From Undibacterium paludis (GTDB taxonomy: Bacteria; Pseudomonadota; Gammaproteobacteria; Burkholderiales; Burkholderiaceae_D): DNA of 64,000 nt. Positions 7,846 through 15,398 of this stretch are shown here, one piece after another (the stretch's first letter is position 1; every line of letters starts with the position of its first letter). Below the pieces are notes generated by a model. The model did no database searches. It was not told the DNA's origin and saw only the letters and a list, made by a program, of their open reading frames with translations. A program made the position numbers and the translations under genes. The DNA lies in assembly GCF_022568815.1 (NCBI RefSeq), contig NZ_JAKZHX010000005.1, positions 248,001 to 312,000 of the forward strand, read 5' to 3'.

Positions 7846-8313
7846 ATGAAACATTATCAAACAAAAGATAGTACCGGCCATCTTCTGCATGAAACATCCC
7901 ACATGCCTGCCATCAGGAAACCAGCCACCCCAAAAAAAGCGAGGGTGATTGCCGGAATCATTTCAGCCTTCCTGCTCGTCAACATCTGCATGGCGGCAGA
8001 TCGCCAGGACACCAGCGCCCGTGCACGTTATGACTATGAGAAAAGCCTCTGCATCAAAGGCCAGACCAATCAATCCAAAGAAACCTGCCTGCGCGAGGCC
8101 GGTGCAGCCTTGCAGCAGTCCCGGTCAAACGGTCTTACCACAGAGAGCGAAGATCAATTGCAACGCAACCGCGAACGCCGCTGCGAGGCCCACCCGCCAG
8201 CAGAGCGCGAATACTGCCTGCAACGCATGCGCGGGGAAGGAACCCAATCCGGCAGCGCAGAACGCGGCGGCATCTTGCGTGAACTGGTTGTGCCGGTGAA
8301 GCCGGGGCAGTAA
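7846..8313 (+). CDS. Exported/anchored hypothetical protein, cysteine- and charge-rich
   Basis: 155 residues; a TGAGG seven bases before the ATG supports this start, though the ATG at 7903 (MPAIRK) is also possible. One hydrophobic stretch (VIAGIISAFLLVNICMA, about 34-50) follows a basic N-terminus and reads as a signal peptide or anchor. The mature part is a highly charged helix with evenly placed cysteines (SLCIKG, ETCLRE, RRCEAH, EYCLQR), which suggests two disulphides in the periplasm. No family recognised; similar small Cys-helix proteins are common near envelope genes in Burkholderiales. Confidence 0.65.
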   Translation: MKHYQTKDSTGHLLHETSHMPAIRKPATPKKARVIAGIISAFLLVNICMAADRQDTSARARYDYEKSLCIKGQTNQSKETCLREAGAALQQSRSNGLTTESEDQLQRNRERRCEAHPPAEREYCLQRMRGEGTQSGSAERGGILRELVVPVKPGQ

Positions 8314-9877: not shown

Positions 9878-10222
9878 ATGACAAAGCGCCAGCATATTGA
9901 AAGAGTGCCTAAGGTTTTTGTTGAAACTACGATTTTCACCAGCCAATTGAAAGGCTTGTTGACCGTTAATGAGCACAGGCAATTACAAAACGAACTCGTA
10001 GAAAACTCCGAATCAGGCAACCTGATCAGTGGCGACGGAGGTATTCGAAAGATACGTGTCAGTTACGGTGACAAAGGCAAGAGCGGCGGAGCAAGGGCAA
10101 TCTACTATTTCAGGGCCACAGATGATCAAATCTACATGCTGGTAATCTACCCCAAATCAGTCAAAGACAATTTATCCGCCGCCGAAAAAGCCATACTCAA
10201 AGAGTTGGTAAAATCATTGTAA
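9878..10222 (+). CDS. higB2: HigB2-type RelE/ParE-superfamily toxin
   Basis: 114 residues matching the HigB-2 pattern: VFVETTIFTSQLKGLLTVNEHRQLQNELVENSESGNLISGDGGIRKIRVSYGDKGKSGGARAIYYF, then YMLVIYPKSVKDNLS. This is the RelE-like ribosome-dependent mRNA interferase fold, with the conserved basic residues on the RKIR and GGARAIYYF strands. Toxin-first order, 23 bases ahead of the HTH antitoxin, is typical of higBA and not of relBE. Family knowledge predicts growth arrest by cutting mRNA in the ribosomal A-site. It borders the giant STAND ATPase gene, a common setting in defence islands. Confidence 0.85.
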   Translation: MTKRQHIERVPKVFVETTIFTSQLKGLLTVNEHRQLQNELVENSESGNLISGDGGIRKIRVSYGDKGKSGGARAIYYFRATDDQIYMLVIYPKSVKDNLSAAEKAILKELVKSL

Positions 10223-10245: not shown

Positions 10246-10614
10246 ATGGACAAAGAATTATTCGCCTATTTGGTCACCAGCCTCACAGAAGCAGGGAAAA
10301 TCGCCAAAGGCCAGGCAAAACCTCCTCGTATCACGACACTGGAAAAATCTGGCAAGACAAGCAAAGGCCCGGCAAAACCAAAAAACAAAACGGCAACTGC
10401 GCCAGTGATTCAACATAAAAAAATCGATGCCAGAGAAGTTCGTGAAAAAACCGGTCTGTCACAAAGCGATTTTGCCATAGTCATGAACGTCAGTATCAAG
10501 ACCCTGCAAAACTGGGAGCAACACAGACGCGAACCGACTGGTGCGGCAGATTCCCTACTCAGAGTATTTGCCGCTGCGCCGGAGTTGGTTTTGAAGGCTT
10601 TGCATCATTCTTGA
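10246..10614 (+). CDS. higA2: HigA2-type HTH antitoxin
   Basis: 122 residues; AAGGAG lies eight bases before the ATG. The C-terminal half is an XRE/Cro helix-turn-helix of HigA-2 type: REVREKTGLSQSDFAIVMNVSIKTLQNWEQHRREPTGAADSLLRVFAAAPELVLKAL. The N-terminal ~55 residues carry a lysine/proline-rich linker with two similar blocks (AKGQAKPP and SKGPAKPK), longer than in the ~104-residue Vibrio HigA-2. It should bind HigB2 and repress the shared promoter in the ~160 bases upstream of the toxin gene. It converges with the STAND gene, 26 bases away. Confidence 0.85.
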   Translation: MDKELFAYLVTSLTEAGKIAKGQAKPPRITTLEKSGKTSKGPAKPKNKTATAPVIQHKKIDAREVREKTGLSQSDFAIVMNVSIKTLQNWEQHRREPTGAADSLLRVFAAAPELVLKALHHS

Positions 10615-10640: not shown

Positions 10641-13600
10641 TCAGTTCAATAACGCAAACTTGAGCAAATTATCTGGTGCTTTCAAACCAAAGAGAGTGTC
10701 TTTTCTTTTTTCCGTACGTTTTTTTGCAGCCGACTCAATATTGGAAATCAGATTATCTCCAAATTTCTTAAATATTTCACCACGACTCACCTCATAAAAC
10801 CATAGATAGCATCTTCTATCAGCAACACCTTTTGCCAGTTGACCATAGCGCCAAAAATCATTCTGATCAGCGGCCATTGCAGCTAGCGAAAACCAATGAT
10901 ATGCCCACTCATTTTTTATATAAGCTCTGCTTGCCTTCTCCGCTACATCTCCCAGAAATCCCATTCCCCATAATCTTTTAAATGTAGCTTCTGATATTAC
11001 ATTTCTATGACGCAATCCTGCAATTGTTAAACCTCTAGCTTGCTCTCCAGAACAGCTAGATTCAAGCAATTTGGCCATGTAAGTATCTAGCCATAATCCA
11101 GCTCCACAAGCATCTGCCGATATGACCACCAGCTCCAGTTCCTGATCCGTTAACGCCTCAGAAAAACTAGCTTCCCGTAAAATGTCTAACTCAGCGACAG
11201 CGCAATTTTTGAAAAGCGATTGCATGTATAAGGAAACTTGTGCATTACCTACAAGAATTGAAACGAAGGGGCGGATATCATGCAAGTGCCCTAAGACTCG
11301 CTTCGACATATCTCCATCGTGAATTGCAAATACTCCCGCCAGCACCGTTCCAAAATTTGAAAAATTGCGAAGTATCCTACGGTCATTTGTACTCAAAATC
11401 TGCTGAAGCCATTTCTCTACAATATCTTTATCATGCTTTACAAGTAAAGCAGCGCTACTCCAGTCTAAGTTTGATAATAACTCTTGTGCCTGCTCACTTA
11501 TTATTTCTTTTTTGAATGTTTTCACTTGATCAAAGATTTCTCTTTGTTCTTTGGCATAATCTTCAAGATCATTGTCCTTAGCTAAATCTCGTAGCATGCT
11601 CCTTAAATCTTGTTCTGAATTTGAATCTTCAAACTCATCTATCTGCATCCTGCTTTTTTGCCCATTTTCACTAATTTGCATTGAGACTCTTGCAGATAAA
11701 GGCTCAGAAACATGAACAGGTTGGGTAAATCTATTTACAGCTTGACTTGTCATTTCAAGTAGCGCCTTATAAGCATCGCCTTCCAAAGCACAAGCTACGG
11801 AACCAATAAATTCAGATGTTACTAGTGACACTAGATCTGGCCGTTTTTGACTTATTACTACGGCAGCAATTGCGCGTTCGTGAAAAAAAAGGAAGCCATC
11901 TTCATTTGCCAAGAAAGGTGGATTTGAAAGTGGCACTTTTTCTAAAGCCATCTTATTAAGCAGTTCATCTTCAGCAACAAACACCAATTCTGACGCGAAA
12001 GCTGCAATAGCAGAGTTACTACTAACAATGTTTTCCGCAATTATTCTTCTTGCACACTCAGTAAGTACCGGGCGGTTAACCATGGCGATCATCAAGACTT
12101 TTCTCAACAAAGTAAAGTCTGTGTTCTGACTTGCGATCTTCAAGTAATGTTCTAATCGCTCAGTACTGAGTGGTTTTATGGCATATAGTAAAGCATCAAA
12201 TTCATGAATGTCTTTTGGTAATTTCAAAAGAATTTCTAGTTGATCTTCCACTTCAAGATGTGGCATCAGGCTCATTCCGATGTAATTTAGAATGAATTGA
12301 AAATCTTCGCTCTGAACTAAAGAAGGGTCGTTAATTACTCTTTCAAAAGTAGAGGTTACCGAACTAATAGTTTGCTCGTTAAATAATGGGCTGAGTTCAG
12401 GCAATCGCCAAACCAACTGCCTGAGTGGCATTTGCGAACGACCTTCTATCGAGTGAATGGTATCCCGCAACAGTTTTATAACATCTGACGAACTAAAACG
12501 CGCCAACGCAGGGGTTACATCTTCCAAGTCAATCTCCGCGCTATCTTGACTAAAATTATTCCAAAGAGTGGCTGCTTCAATTTTCGTTATTACATCACGA
12601 GCATTTTGGATGTTACTTCCTATCTGAGAATTAGTGTCGTATGGGTCAGTATTACAATATCGTTCAACACGTCTGAAGCGCTCTCCGCTAGAAATAGGTA
12701 ACAAGTCATCTGCGCGAGCATCAAGATCAATATCACCTAACATCCTCATAGCATAAACCGAGGCTTGGCACATAGATTCTGAGGCTTCAACTAAAACAGT
12801 ATCTACTTGCTGCACCAAAGAGTTTTTTGTATTTATATAGTCCTGTGAATTTAATCGAACTGCCCATAACAAATCATCAATTCGACTTAGAAAATCTGGT
12901 GCCACAACTGCGGCCAATCTTGAAGCAAGAAATGCAGCACTAAAGTTTGCTTGCCGCCTCCCAGCGACTAAGATAGCAGCAGCTCTTAGTAATGGCGTCA
13001 CCGTGGGCTTTTCACATTCAATGCAATTTTTCGCAAAAAATAAATTCTCTTCAGTTGATAATTTCATTCGCACTTGAGATATTGTCAATTCATATTCTTC
13101 TTGCCTTTGAATTTGTTTTTCATCATTCATTTGCACGGACGTACGACTGGACCAACTTCCCAGCCATTTTTTTATACGTTCTTCAAAAGTGCATTGTAAA
13201 TTGACATTATCCCGAGCATTGAGTAGTAATTTCAATATATCATCTTCACGTACGTGTGACCCAATCAACTCAACAATATCAAGAAAACTCTCAGGAAATG
13301 AAGGAACACAATGCGACAATTCTAGAATCATATTCCTGTCAGGATTTTGCATAGCAAGACTGAATTCTAACAATGCCACACGGGCAGAACCTAGGTAGTC
13401 CGGATTATTGCAAGCCAATACTGTCGCTGCCGTAACTGCGCTGCTCACCAAATCGAAAGCACGTATTGGCTCCAATATTCGATCTAATAATTCGCGGTGA
13501 TTTGAAGTATTTTGCGTTTTTAGCTCATGAGCAATCAACAACCCAATGGCAAACGGAAGTGTCTCCGATTTAAACTCATAGAAATTTTCATCACCTTTAC

Positions 13601-15218
13601 TAATCTGCAAAAACCTTCCTTCTTCAATTTCTGTAAGATCATTAACATAATTTCTGCCATGATTTCCCGATACGGCAGGAGATCTGCTTGCCCAACTATC
13701 TCGATCGAACGATGAATTAGGATTCTGTATCCATTCGCGAGCATGAGCTCGCAATAAATTTAAAAAAGCAACTGCACTATGAGCAATCAAGTCCCCCCGC
13801 TCTTCCAGCCTGGCTCTCCAATACTCAAGAAGTAAGCGTTCTATTGTCAATGCTCCTGGTTGATCTAGTTGTGGCAGCAGACCTATAGCCACTGAACATA
13901 CTCTTGGATTACGGATGAAAACCTGAACCTTTGGTGCTACAGTATTAGGATCAATATCATGCCGCTTAAAAATTAAATTCAAGTCAGATTGAGAGTAGTT
14001 ATTGACGTCTACTCTATTCACTAGCAACTTCCCTAATCGAGCACTAATTTCACGCTGCCAATATGCTGGACGACAAGTAGCTATTACACAGCCGCCAAGC
14101 TTTGCAACTGCAAACGTCATGGATTTGAGAATGTCAGCCCAAGGCTTTCCCGCATGTTCGTTTAAGCCATCAAGAACAATGACAAAACGTATGCAATTAT
14201 CTGCTTTTTGCTCTTGCCAGCGCTTTAGTTTGCACGCCCAGCTTTGTATCGACGATTGCCGGGCAGAACCATCTTGTTGTGAAAGCAAATGGGCAACACT
14301 CTCTATCGGATTCCCAGGGTCTAATTGTTCAGTTCTGCGTCCAGCAACAAATAACACTACTGGGGCTTTAGCTAATTGAGATACCCATTGAGCGACAACC
14401 CAAGTCTTCCCGACTCCCTCTTCTCCTAAAACGGCAATTAGCGATGGCGCTCCATCCGAATTTTGTATCTCTATTACTTTGTCGTTGAGCTTTTCAACTT
14501 CGATATTGCGTGGAATTATTTTGGAGACAGAATTAACTACGTCAATATATTGTCCAAATACAATTTGTGATTTATCTCGATCATTAAACTTCTCCAATAG
14601 CCATTCGTTGCTACGCTTTCTTAAAGCATCAAGTCCAACTTCAGACAAACTTGCTTTTCGACGCAATTGTTCTATCTGAGAAGTGAAACGGGAATCTGCA
14701 ACAATCGAATCAAAAATTGTAGATAAGTTAGTTGGCAATACATCTGGTGTATGTCGAACAAACCAAGCCTCGCTACTGATGCGAGCACCTGCTAACAGGA
14801 CAGCAAGGTGCGGCAATGATTGTTCAGACCAATCCAACGTAAGTAAGCTAATACCAGACTTTTCTAATATCTCGTGTAATTTTGCATTGATATCATCACC
14901 AACCTCACTAGTTGCAGCCAGCACCCAAAGGTCGATTCGATTTTCCAAAGAAAAACCCGCAATCCCTGCTTTCCCTACTAAGTCATCTAGAGTCAACTTT
15001 TCTTTATAACGCTTTGCCTCCATTGCTATTGCAAATGGAGCTGGTCCCGTACTTGCGTCACGACCAAACTGAGAACCAGATTTTGCGAGGCGGAATACAA
15101 GTCCTGTTAATTCTGACAGCGAACATGCGACGAGGCCTTCGAAGCCATCTGGGCCAGCAGGTTTTAGATCTAAAAGAAGTTGTCGAAGCGTACTGAGAGA
15201 AATATTCAACGTAGACAA
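10641..15218 (-). CDS. Giant PD-(D/E)XK nuclease-like / STAND ATPase protein, probable antiphage sensor
   Basis: 1525 residues from a TTG start with AAAGG nine bases upstream. Domain 1 (~1-145) looks like a Mrr-type PD-(D/E)XK nuclease: FEGLV (Glu26), SGSQFGRD (Asp54), AMEAKRY (Glu67, Lys69), then IDLWVLAATSEVG. Domain 2 is a STAND/NACHT-like ATPase: Walker A LGEEGVGKTW (265-272), Walker B FVIVLDGLNEH (345-354) and an arginine-bearing TCRPAYW (381-387). The remaining ~1000 residues are predicted mostly helical, without clear TPR or LRR periodicity, the place of the ligand sensor in Avs proteins. Nuclease-STAND-sensor order and length are those of Avs4-type defence proteins. It is visibly A+T-richer than its neighbours, pointing to transfer. 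The assignment to defence is inferred. Confidence 0.8.
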   Translation of the reverse strand: MSTLNISLSTLRQLLLDLKPAGPDGFEGLVACSLSELTGLVFRLAKSGSQFGRDASTGPAPFAIAMEAKRYKEKLTLDDLVGKAGIAGFSLENRIDLWVLAATSEVGDDINAKLHEILEKSGISLLTLDWSEQSLPHLAVLLAGARISSEAWFVRHTPDVLPTNLSTIFDSIVADSRFTSQIEQLRRKASLSEVGLDALRKRSNEWLLEKFNDRDKSQIVFGQYIDVVNSVSKIIPRNIEVEKLNDKVIEIQNSDGAPSLIAVLGEEGVGKTWVVAQWVSQLAKAPVVLFVAGRRTEQLDPGNPIESVAHLLSQQDGSARQSSIQSWACKLKRWQEQKADNCIRFVIVLDGLNEHAGKPWADILKSMTFAVAKLGGCVIATCRPAYWQREISARLGKLLVNRVDVNNYSQSDLNLIFKRHDIDPNTVAPKVQVFIRNPRVCSVAIGLLPQLDQPGALTIERLLLEYWRARLEERGDLIAHSAVAFLNLLRAHAREWIQNPNSSFDRDSWASRSPAVSGNHGRNYVNDLTEIEEGRFLQISKGDENFYEFKSETLPFAIGLLIAHELKTQNTSNHRELLDRILEPIRAFDLVSSAVTAATVLACNNPDYLGSARVALLEFSLAMQNPDRNMILELSHCVPSFPESFLDIVELIGSHVREDDILKLLLNARDNVNLQCTFEERIKKWLGSWSSRTSVQMNDEKQIQRQEEYELTISQVRMKLSTEENLFFAKNCIECEKPTVTPLLRAAAILVAGRRQANFSAAFLASRLAAVVAPDFLSRIDDLLWAVRLNSQDYINTKNSLVQQVDTVLVEASESMCQASVYAMRMLGDIDLDARADDLLPISSGERFRRVERYCNTDPYDTNSQIGSNIQNARDVITKIEAATLWNNFSQDSAEIDLEDVTPALARFSSSDVIKLLRDTIHSIEGRSQMPLRQLVWRLPELSPLFNEQTISSVTSTFERVINDPSLVQSEDFQFILNYIGMSLMPHLEVEDQLEILLKLPKDIHEFDALLYAIKPLSTERLEHYLKIASQNTDFTLLRKVLMIAMVNRPVLTECARRIIAENIVSSNSAIAAFASELVFVAEDELLNKMALEKVPLSNPPFLANEDGFLFFHERAIAAVVISQKRPDLVSLVTSEFIGSVACALEGDAYKALLEMTSQAVNRFTQPVHVSEPLSARVSMQISENGQKSRMQIDEFEDSNSEQDLRSMLRDLAKDNDLEDYAKEQREIFDQVKTFKKEIISEQAQELLSNLDWSSAALLVKHDKDIVEKWLQQILSTNDRRILRNFSNFGTVLAGVFAIHDGDMSKRVLGHLHDIRPFVSILVGNAQVSLYMQSLFKNCAVAELDILREASFSEALTDQELELVVISADACGAGLWLDTYMAKLLESSCSGEQARGLTIAGLRHRNVISEATFKRLWGMGFLGDVAEKASRAYIKNEWAYHWFSLAAMAADQNDFWRYGQLAKGVADRRCYLWFYEVSRGEIFKKFGDNLISNIESAAKKRTEKRKDTLFGLKAPDNLLKFALLN

Positions 15219-15398
15219 ATGAATTAACCTTTAAGTTGTTCAAGCAACTTGCAATTATTCAATCCATCTCGGGTTAGGATGGGCTATCTATACTTTATCC
15301 TCAAATACTCGTGAAAAAAAGTAGAAATTAATATTTTCCATGTAATTCCCAAAATCACCGTCAACGATACTCTTGCCTTTGCACCCGCTCACGGATAA

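Follow-up and report, generated by a model that had tools for sequence, protein, structure and literature searches.

Introduction

Avs proteins are the bacterial equivalents of immune receptors of the NLR type. The hallmarks of the STAND/NACHT class are a Walker A motif, a hydrophobic Walker B strand with D-G-x-N/D and a sensor-1 Arg, accompanied by an N-terminal effector and a long C-terminal sensor. Few activators of Avs proteins have been identified (PMC12931631): the large terminase, the portal protein, Ksap1 and JADA, a protein of jumbo phages. Here, we describe a gene found in a 64,000-nucleotide stretch of the 6.5 Mb genome of Undibacterium paludis (contig NZ_JAKZHX010000005.1, positions 248,001 to 312,000 of the forward strand), hereafter the window. 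Its product is very probably an anti-phage protein of Avs design, in which a nuclease, a STAND switch and a sensor follow one another. We place the probability that this one gene encodes a complete Avs-type immune sensor against phages at about 0.82. This prediction is supported by the domain order, by intact catalytic and ATP-binding residues, by conservation across a protein family, by the defence neighbourhoods of relatives and by a patchy spread. Compared with Avs2, Avs3 and Avs4, the protein looks from its sequence like a type apart; the kind is known, and the type looks new.

The gene and its family

The gene is a single uninterrupted open reading frame (ORF) of 1525 amino acids with a TTG start and no internal stops. 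Its G+C content is 0.407, against 0.522 for the window, 0.570 for the adjacent GH31 gene and 0.574 for the adjacent OmpA gene, which agrees with the original prediction that it is A+T-richer than both sides. Among equal-length stretches taken in 500-base steps, the gene stretch is the G+C minimum of the window. Its features are as follows.

10641..15218, minus strand: nuclease-STAND-sensor gene, 1525 amino acids, TTG at 15218, stop included (16-member full-length alignment)
15228..15232, minus strand: AAAGG, putative ribosome-binding site 9 nucleotides before the TTG (by eye from the sequence)
14769..15218, minus strand: predicted Mrr-type PD-(D/E)XK nuclease, residues 1-150, with E27, D54 and E67-A-K69 (hhalign, predicted fold, conservation)
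14529..14768, minus strand: weakly conserved linker, residues 151-230 (predicted model and alignment)
13779..14528, minus strand: STAND/NACHT-like NTPase, residues 231-480, with Walker A at 265-272, Walker B at 346-354, sensor-1-like R383 and NPR at 437-439 (Pfam, motifs, profile comparison)
10644..13778, minus strand: putative sensor, residues 481-1525, about 1045 residues, predicted helical, variability highest at residues 1171-1240 (low-confidence model, alignment, profiles)

Searches by tblastn and of genomes recovered three relatives in genome contigs and more in other genomes; direct searches with the window protein (P0001) cover the more distant members in part only. Sixteen full-length rows of at least 1444 residues were aligned, with 18-44% identity to P0001, and their tree splits with good support into halves of 6 and 10 rows. 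Before alignment, L014 was set aside as a split copy and L018, L019 and L027/L030 as fragments, together with L004-L008, L010, L020, L025, L026 and L028, which were repeat or shorter retrievals from identical or nearly identical loci. In genome G710, a second family copy is represented by a C-terminal fragment (L030 7093-7545). No model in PADLOC 2.0.0, NCBIfam 20.0 or Pfam covers the family, nor was a description of it recognised in the accessible literature searched by topic and by the accessions of six relatives, supplements and most subscription journals lying outside that scope.

The nuclease domain

The nuclease is the best-conserved region of the protein, with 57-73% identity to the four nearest relatives versus 24-34% for residues 901-1170 (values that exclude the divergent row L024). 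E27, D54 and E67 are kept in 15 of the 16 full-length relatives and K69 in 14; in a separate MAFFT run, which places L024 differently, E67 counts as 16/16. The original prediction had named D54 and E67-x-K69 correctly, while its first glutamate, given as Glu26, is Glu27. A profile of residues 5-160 built from 15 rows (without L024) was compared by hhalign, whose E-values apply to single comparisons, with a profile of 19 Mrr_cat domains (PF04471; 20 loci fetched, one with a stop dropped). The two align with a probability (Prob, in percent) of 92.4 in local and 94.6 in global mode, the catalytic positions in register, as the nuclease fold proposed for the N-terminus would have it. The same comparison gave at most 1.8 for ten other family slices and at most 0.6 for eight column shuffles. 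In the AlphaFold model, helix 26-38, strand 42-44, strand 64-69, helix 77-90, strand 97-102, helix 108-120 and strand 124-128 follow one another, and this predicted order is that of PD-(D/E)XK enzymes; residues 49-63, which hold D54, have a predicted local distance difference test score (pLDDT) below 50. The E - D - (Q/E)xK set thus lies on the core of a domain matched by profile, not by hmmscan, and residues 5-150 are supported as an Mrr-type PD-(D/E)XK nuclease with predicted activity.

These results bear on an alternative reading, in which the protein is a STAND regulator of transcription or development whose N-terminal domain has degenerated. Work on bacterial STAND proteins has centred on their role in transcriptional regulation (PMC7159879), but here the catalytic residues hardly vary, no other part is as well conserved as the nuclease and the N-terminus aligns with Mrr_cat, which makes a regulator extremely improbable.

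One family member departs from this layout. L024 (180-4826, genome G536) has the STAND and sensor regions and an N-terminus without nuclease motifs, and may carry another effector or be a truncated copy; the gene upstream of it resembles, by eye, an IS110-type transposase.

The NTPase switch

Walker A (GEEGVGKT, residues 265-272) and Walker B (VIVLDGLNE, residues 346-354) are in place, as had been predicted. G265, G268, G270, K271, D350, G351 and N353 are invariant in all 16 members, and R383 is kept in 15. Pfam NACHT is found in 8 of the 16 at E<=0.1, with a best value of 1.7e-6, P0001 itself falling under the gathering score. Profiles of the NTPase align with those of Avs2 (Prob 98.4, E 1e-14), Avs4 (96.8) and Avs3a (95.5). 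When single sequences served as templates, four Avs4 or Avs4-like proteins scored 64-91 and two giant STAND proteins neighbouring family members scored 77 and 94, against 2.5 for a SIR2-like STAND protein of the same genome and 0.1 for the GH31 neighbour. Motifs, NACHT matches and Avs profile matches agree in identifying a STAND/NACHT NTPase, and the profile and template scores place it in the NACHT/Avs-type branch without singling out Avs4. Matches to Csm6 and Orc1/Cdc6 models of NCBIfam (E 0.0037 and 0.038), far under the cut-off, were judged to be chance.

A second giant STAND protein of the same genome (L060, at about position 94382 of contig C11) has at least 1117 residues and looks SIR2-like by eye. 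Its N-terminus matches the PADLOC LmuA model (E 6.2e-17), and it matches part of the Avs4 model (E 1.6e-8).

The putative sensor region and structure models

The original prediction described about 1000 further residues without a known repeat and a sensor half resembling no family that could be named. The first description agrees with Pfam, which has no reliable match past residue 480; the low-confidence AlphaFold model of residues 430-1525 is almost wholly helical. Sensor profiles of the two family halves align with each other (Prob 100, E 2.4e-74, 1016 columns), so the distant members are related through the sensor too. The sensor profile does not align with that of Avs2 (Prob 0.4), Avs3a (0.1) or Avs4 (0.1). 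These profiles were built from five Avs2 sequences (of ten fetched loci), three Avs3a sequences (of five fetched loci, 2128-2178 amino acids long) and four Avs4 sequences, namely two annotated avs4 and two from Bacteroidota with hits to the Avs4 model (E 5e-157 and 1e-114). As a control by the same method, the E. coli Avs4 sensor aligned with the two Bacteroidota Avs4-like sensors at Prob 100 (E 1.7e-59). Among the three known types themselves, Avs2 and Avs3a align best in the NTPase region, as do Avs3a and Avs4, and Avs2 and Avs4 align best across the N-terminal half including the nuclease; none of these best alignments extends into the Avs4 sensor. Profile comparison therefore supports a sensor family separate from those of Avs2, Avs3a and Avs4. 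The sensor also diverges faster than the nuclease, as would be expected of a recognition surface under changing pressure.

Structure comparison points to the same class of proteins. In a Foldseek search of residues 1-640 against 350,542 PDB chains, the top two matches are Avs4 bound to phage portal (E 1.9e-8 and 8.6e-8), the first spanning 644 alignment columns. They are followed by origin-recognition and other AAA ATPases from 6.7e-5 and by a plant NLR at 3.1e-4. Single-sequence and family-profile searches of the PDB gave nothing significant. The top structural match to Avs4 and the NTPase homology to Avs2, Avs3a and Avs4 together support an Avs-type architecture.

Genomic neighbourhoods of relatives

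That this is a defence protein had been suggested from the sequence alone, and the surroundings of its relatives, together with a PARIS system at the same locus in another species, support that role. At E<=1e-15, 105 family-neighbour ORFs match 109 PADLOC models and 139 control ORFs match 9, a contrast rather than a count of systems, which overstates the number of proteins because PADLOC models are redundant. The family side comprises all selected non-overlapping ORFs of at least 130 amino acids within 7 kb of 13 of the 16 loci (L001, L003 and L024 had no matched control), and for the control side the same contigs or plasmids were sampled to equal length (171,202 bases) at positions fixed in advance. 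Some of the neighbours named here were hand-picked for scanning. Hachiman is represented by HamA and HamB at the Manganitrophus locus and by HamA at that of Methylobacterium; the Sphingobium locus has GajB of Gabija, an AbiLi-like ATPase and RloB. The G329 locus has a type II-A retron reverse transcriptase and PDC-S28. On an Azospirillum oryzae plasmid, a giant of about 1735 amino acids (L017 4544-9748) lies directly upstream of the family member, placing two STAND giants side by side; it scores E 1.5e-23 against the sensor portion of the Avs4 model and also matches PDC-M54A. Another example is an LmuA-like STAND giant of about 1477 amino acids in G710 (L029 3934-8364), which adjoins the family member on the opposite strand.

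Further genes were noted near family members. At the G329 locus, the region upstream of the family member also has a serine-esterase-like (DUF676) gene (L023 3300-6214), next to the retron-type II-A reverse transcriptase. A protein with DACNG-DACNH sensor domains is encoded near L024 (8237-9583), and AAA-TOPRIM OLD-like and NucS-like proteins lie near the family member of a Rhizobium phaseoli plasmid (L016 32-1864 and 7519-9234).

Distribution and plasmids

The family is patchy, occurring in 4 of 398 genomes of a phylum sample, 2 of 300 of an order sample and 3 of 118 close relatives, with the U. paludis genome counted in each. Matches were found in 14 of 72,556 plasmid records, five of which cover at least 80% of the query; there were none in 50,697 phage records, and four scans of viral contigs, with one family protein each, found no relative. 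The plasmid-borne relatives, among which exclusion between elements is plausible, fit a STAND nuclease directed against plasmids or other mobile DNA, or one that recognises DNA or replication structures directly. Classical Mrr nucleases do act on DNA without a separate protein sensor. However, a helical region of about 1000 residues joined to a STAND switch is the layout of protein-sensing Avs proteins, and anti-phage systems stand among the neighbours, so that either of these readings is unlikely.

The locus in Undibacterium and related species

In the window, the gene lies tail-to-tail with a toxin-antitoxin pair, identified by library scan.

9878..10222, plus strand: RelE-family toxin of the pair, tail-to-tail with the STAND gene
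10246..10614, plus strand: helix-turn-helix antitoxin, NadS-like (59.9 bits against a cut-off of 60)

The same slot differs in content elsewhere. In another species (G688), the RelE pair is kept at 84% DNA identity, and a 263-residue protein and a small ORF replace the STAND gene. In G702, the interval between the same OmpA and GH31 genes is occupied by a toxin of the ParE family, its partner ORF and two small ORFs. G696, of the same genus, encodes full-length AriAB (PARIS, L056 1956-4046, E 1.7e-248) and a ParE/Phd pair; both are placed between sequence matching window positions 7996-8313 and the same GH31 gene, the OmpA homologue being elsewhere. Since the contents differ among these three genomes, the slot by GH31 is a variable one that at least one other species uses for defence, and within the genus it resembles a defence hotspot.

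An addiction or cell-death module, serving its carrier element without sensing any invader, would account for toxin-antitoxin genes that adjoin the window gene, lie directly upstream on the same strand in Sphingobium and occur near a Methylobacterium indicum fragment, and for the existence of split copies and fragments. Yet one other species keeps the RelE pair and lacks the STAND gene, so that the two are separable; the pairs are of different types, and by eye no partner gene recurs at every locus. We consider such a module very unlikely. An operon of the STAND gene with the window pair was rejected, the genes being tail-to-tail and separable.

Counter-evidence and proposed mechanism

Several observations weigh against an Avs-like immune sensor. 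One of the 16 members (L022) has Arg in place of K69 and another (L024) lacks the nuclease motif set, and some further copies are split or fragmentary. By hmmscan against Pfam at E<=0.1, single-protein searches found no nuclease in P0001 or any of the 16 members. The N-terminus of E. coli Avs4 (two sequences) reached only Prob 0.5 with the family nuclease and 0.2 with Mrr_cat; having matched neither, it indicates that the hhalign test misses some distant nucleases. The structure models are weak, with a mean pLDDT of 63.9 for the N-terminal model and 55.4 for residues 430-1525. The Avs4 match has a template modelling (TM) score of 0.33 and a root-mean-square deviation of 17.8, so likeness to Avs4 is claimed at the level of domains. 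Among the 50 Foldseek matches listed for residues 430-1525 there are HEAT-repeat and importin-type solenoids and no Avs protein; as these are generic folds matched by a low-confidence model, no functional conclusion is drawn from them. For the neighbourhoods, 25 of the 109 redundant models are listed, in a table that does not name the proteins, and no recognised defence gene was found among the four other window neighbours scanned.

For the immune sensor that we favour, a mechanism can be proposed from related proteins. The NTPase would keep the protein inactive at rest, until the helical C-terminal region is bound by a protein that the infecting phage produces. As in other STAND proteins, ATP-dependent oligomerisation might then bring together the N-terminal Mrr-type PD-(D/E)XK domains. 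The assembled nucleases would cut phage and host DNA and so end the infection, by analogy with Avs1-4 (PMC12931631). More tentatively, and at slightly less than even odds, the helical arm may recognise a conserved phage protein other than terminase or portal, making this a further Avs-like receptor type present in Alpha-, Beta- and Gammaproteobacteria and in Nitrospirota, in defence neighbourhoods and on plasmids.

Comparison with known systems

Mrr_cat restriction nucleases share the nuclease core, and their catalytic residues align with those of the family by profile. Mrr enzymes are not known to have the STAND switch or the sensor. The bNACHT proteins share the logic of effector, NTPase and sensor and a sub-threshold NACHT match, a comparison made through Pfam NACHT only (PMC12169576). 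The 42 systems of DefensePredictor (PMC13092281) include PD-(D/E)XK and NACHT proteins and lie outside the family comparison made here. For Avs1 and Avs5, no PADLOC or NCBIfam match was found in the 16 members, the presence of Avs1 and Avs5 models in those libraries being unconfirmed.

Avs4 (AVAST type 4) resembles the family in size (1587 amino acids in E. coli), in its effector-STAND-sensor order, in its NTPase and as the best PDB match of the N-terminal half. Its nuclease and sensor profiles, however, do not align with those of the family, and none of the 16 members matches the PADLOC Avs4 model, which E. coli Avs4 matches as a control (PDLC02169, E 0). Thus, the Avs4-like character suggested in the original prediction lies in the domain order only, and filing the protein as Avs4 is rejected on the family model and on the sensor comparison, although the domain order fits. 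Avs2 has the closest NTPase of the three and a weak nuclease match in register (Prob 62, E 7.4e-5), but its sensor does not align and its sole PADLOC contact is one of the 16 members at E 0.029. Avs3a is alike in its NTPase and unlike in its nuclease and sensor, neither of which aligns, and the compared proteins are longer, at 2128-2178 amino acids. The comparison with Avs proteins invited by the original prediction is therefore divided: the NTPase aligns with all three types and the sensor with none.

Because the sensor aligns within the family and with none of these types, the family stands beside Avs2, Avs3a and Avs4, not inside one of them, and its separate sensor suggests a further Avs-like type. 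A STAND core is here joined to yet another sensor for which profiles show no relation to the rest. With the effector-switch layout the same and the sensor unrelated, it becomes possible to ask which conserved phage fold is read.

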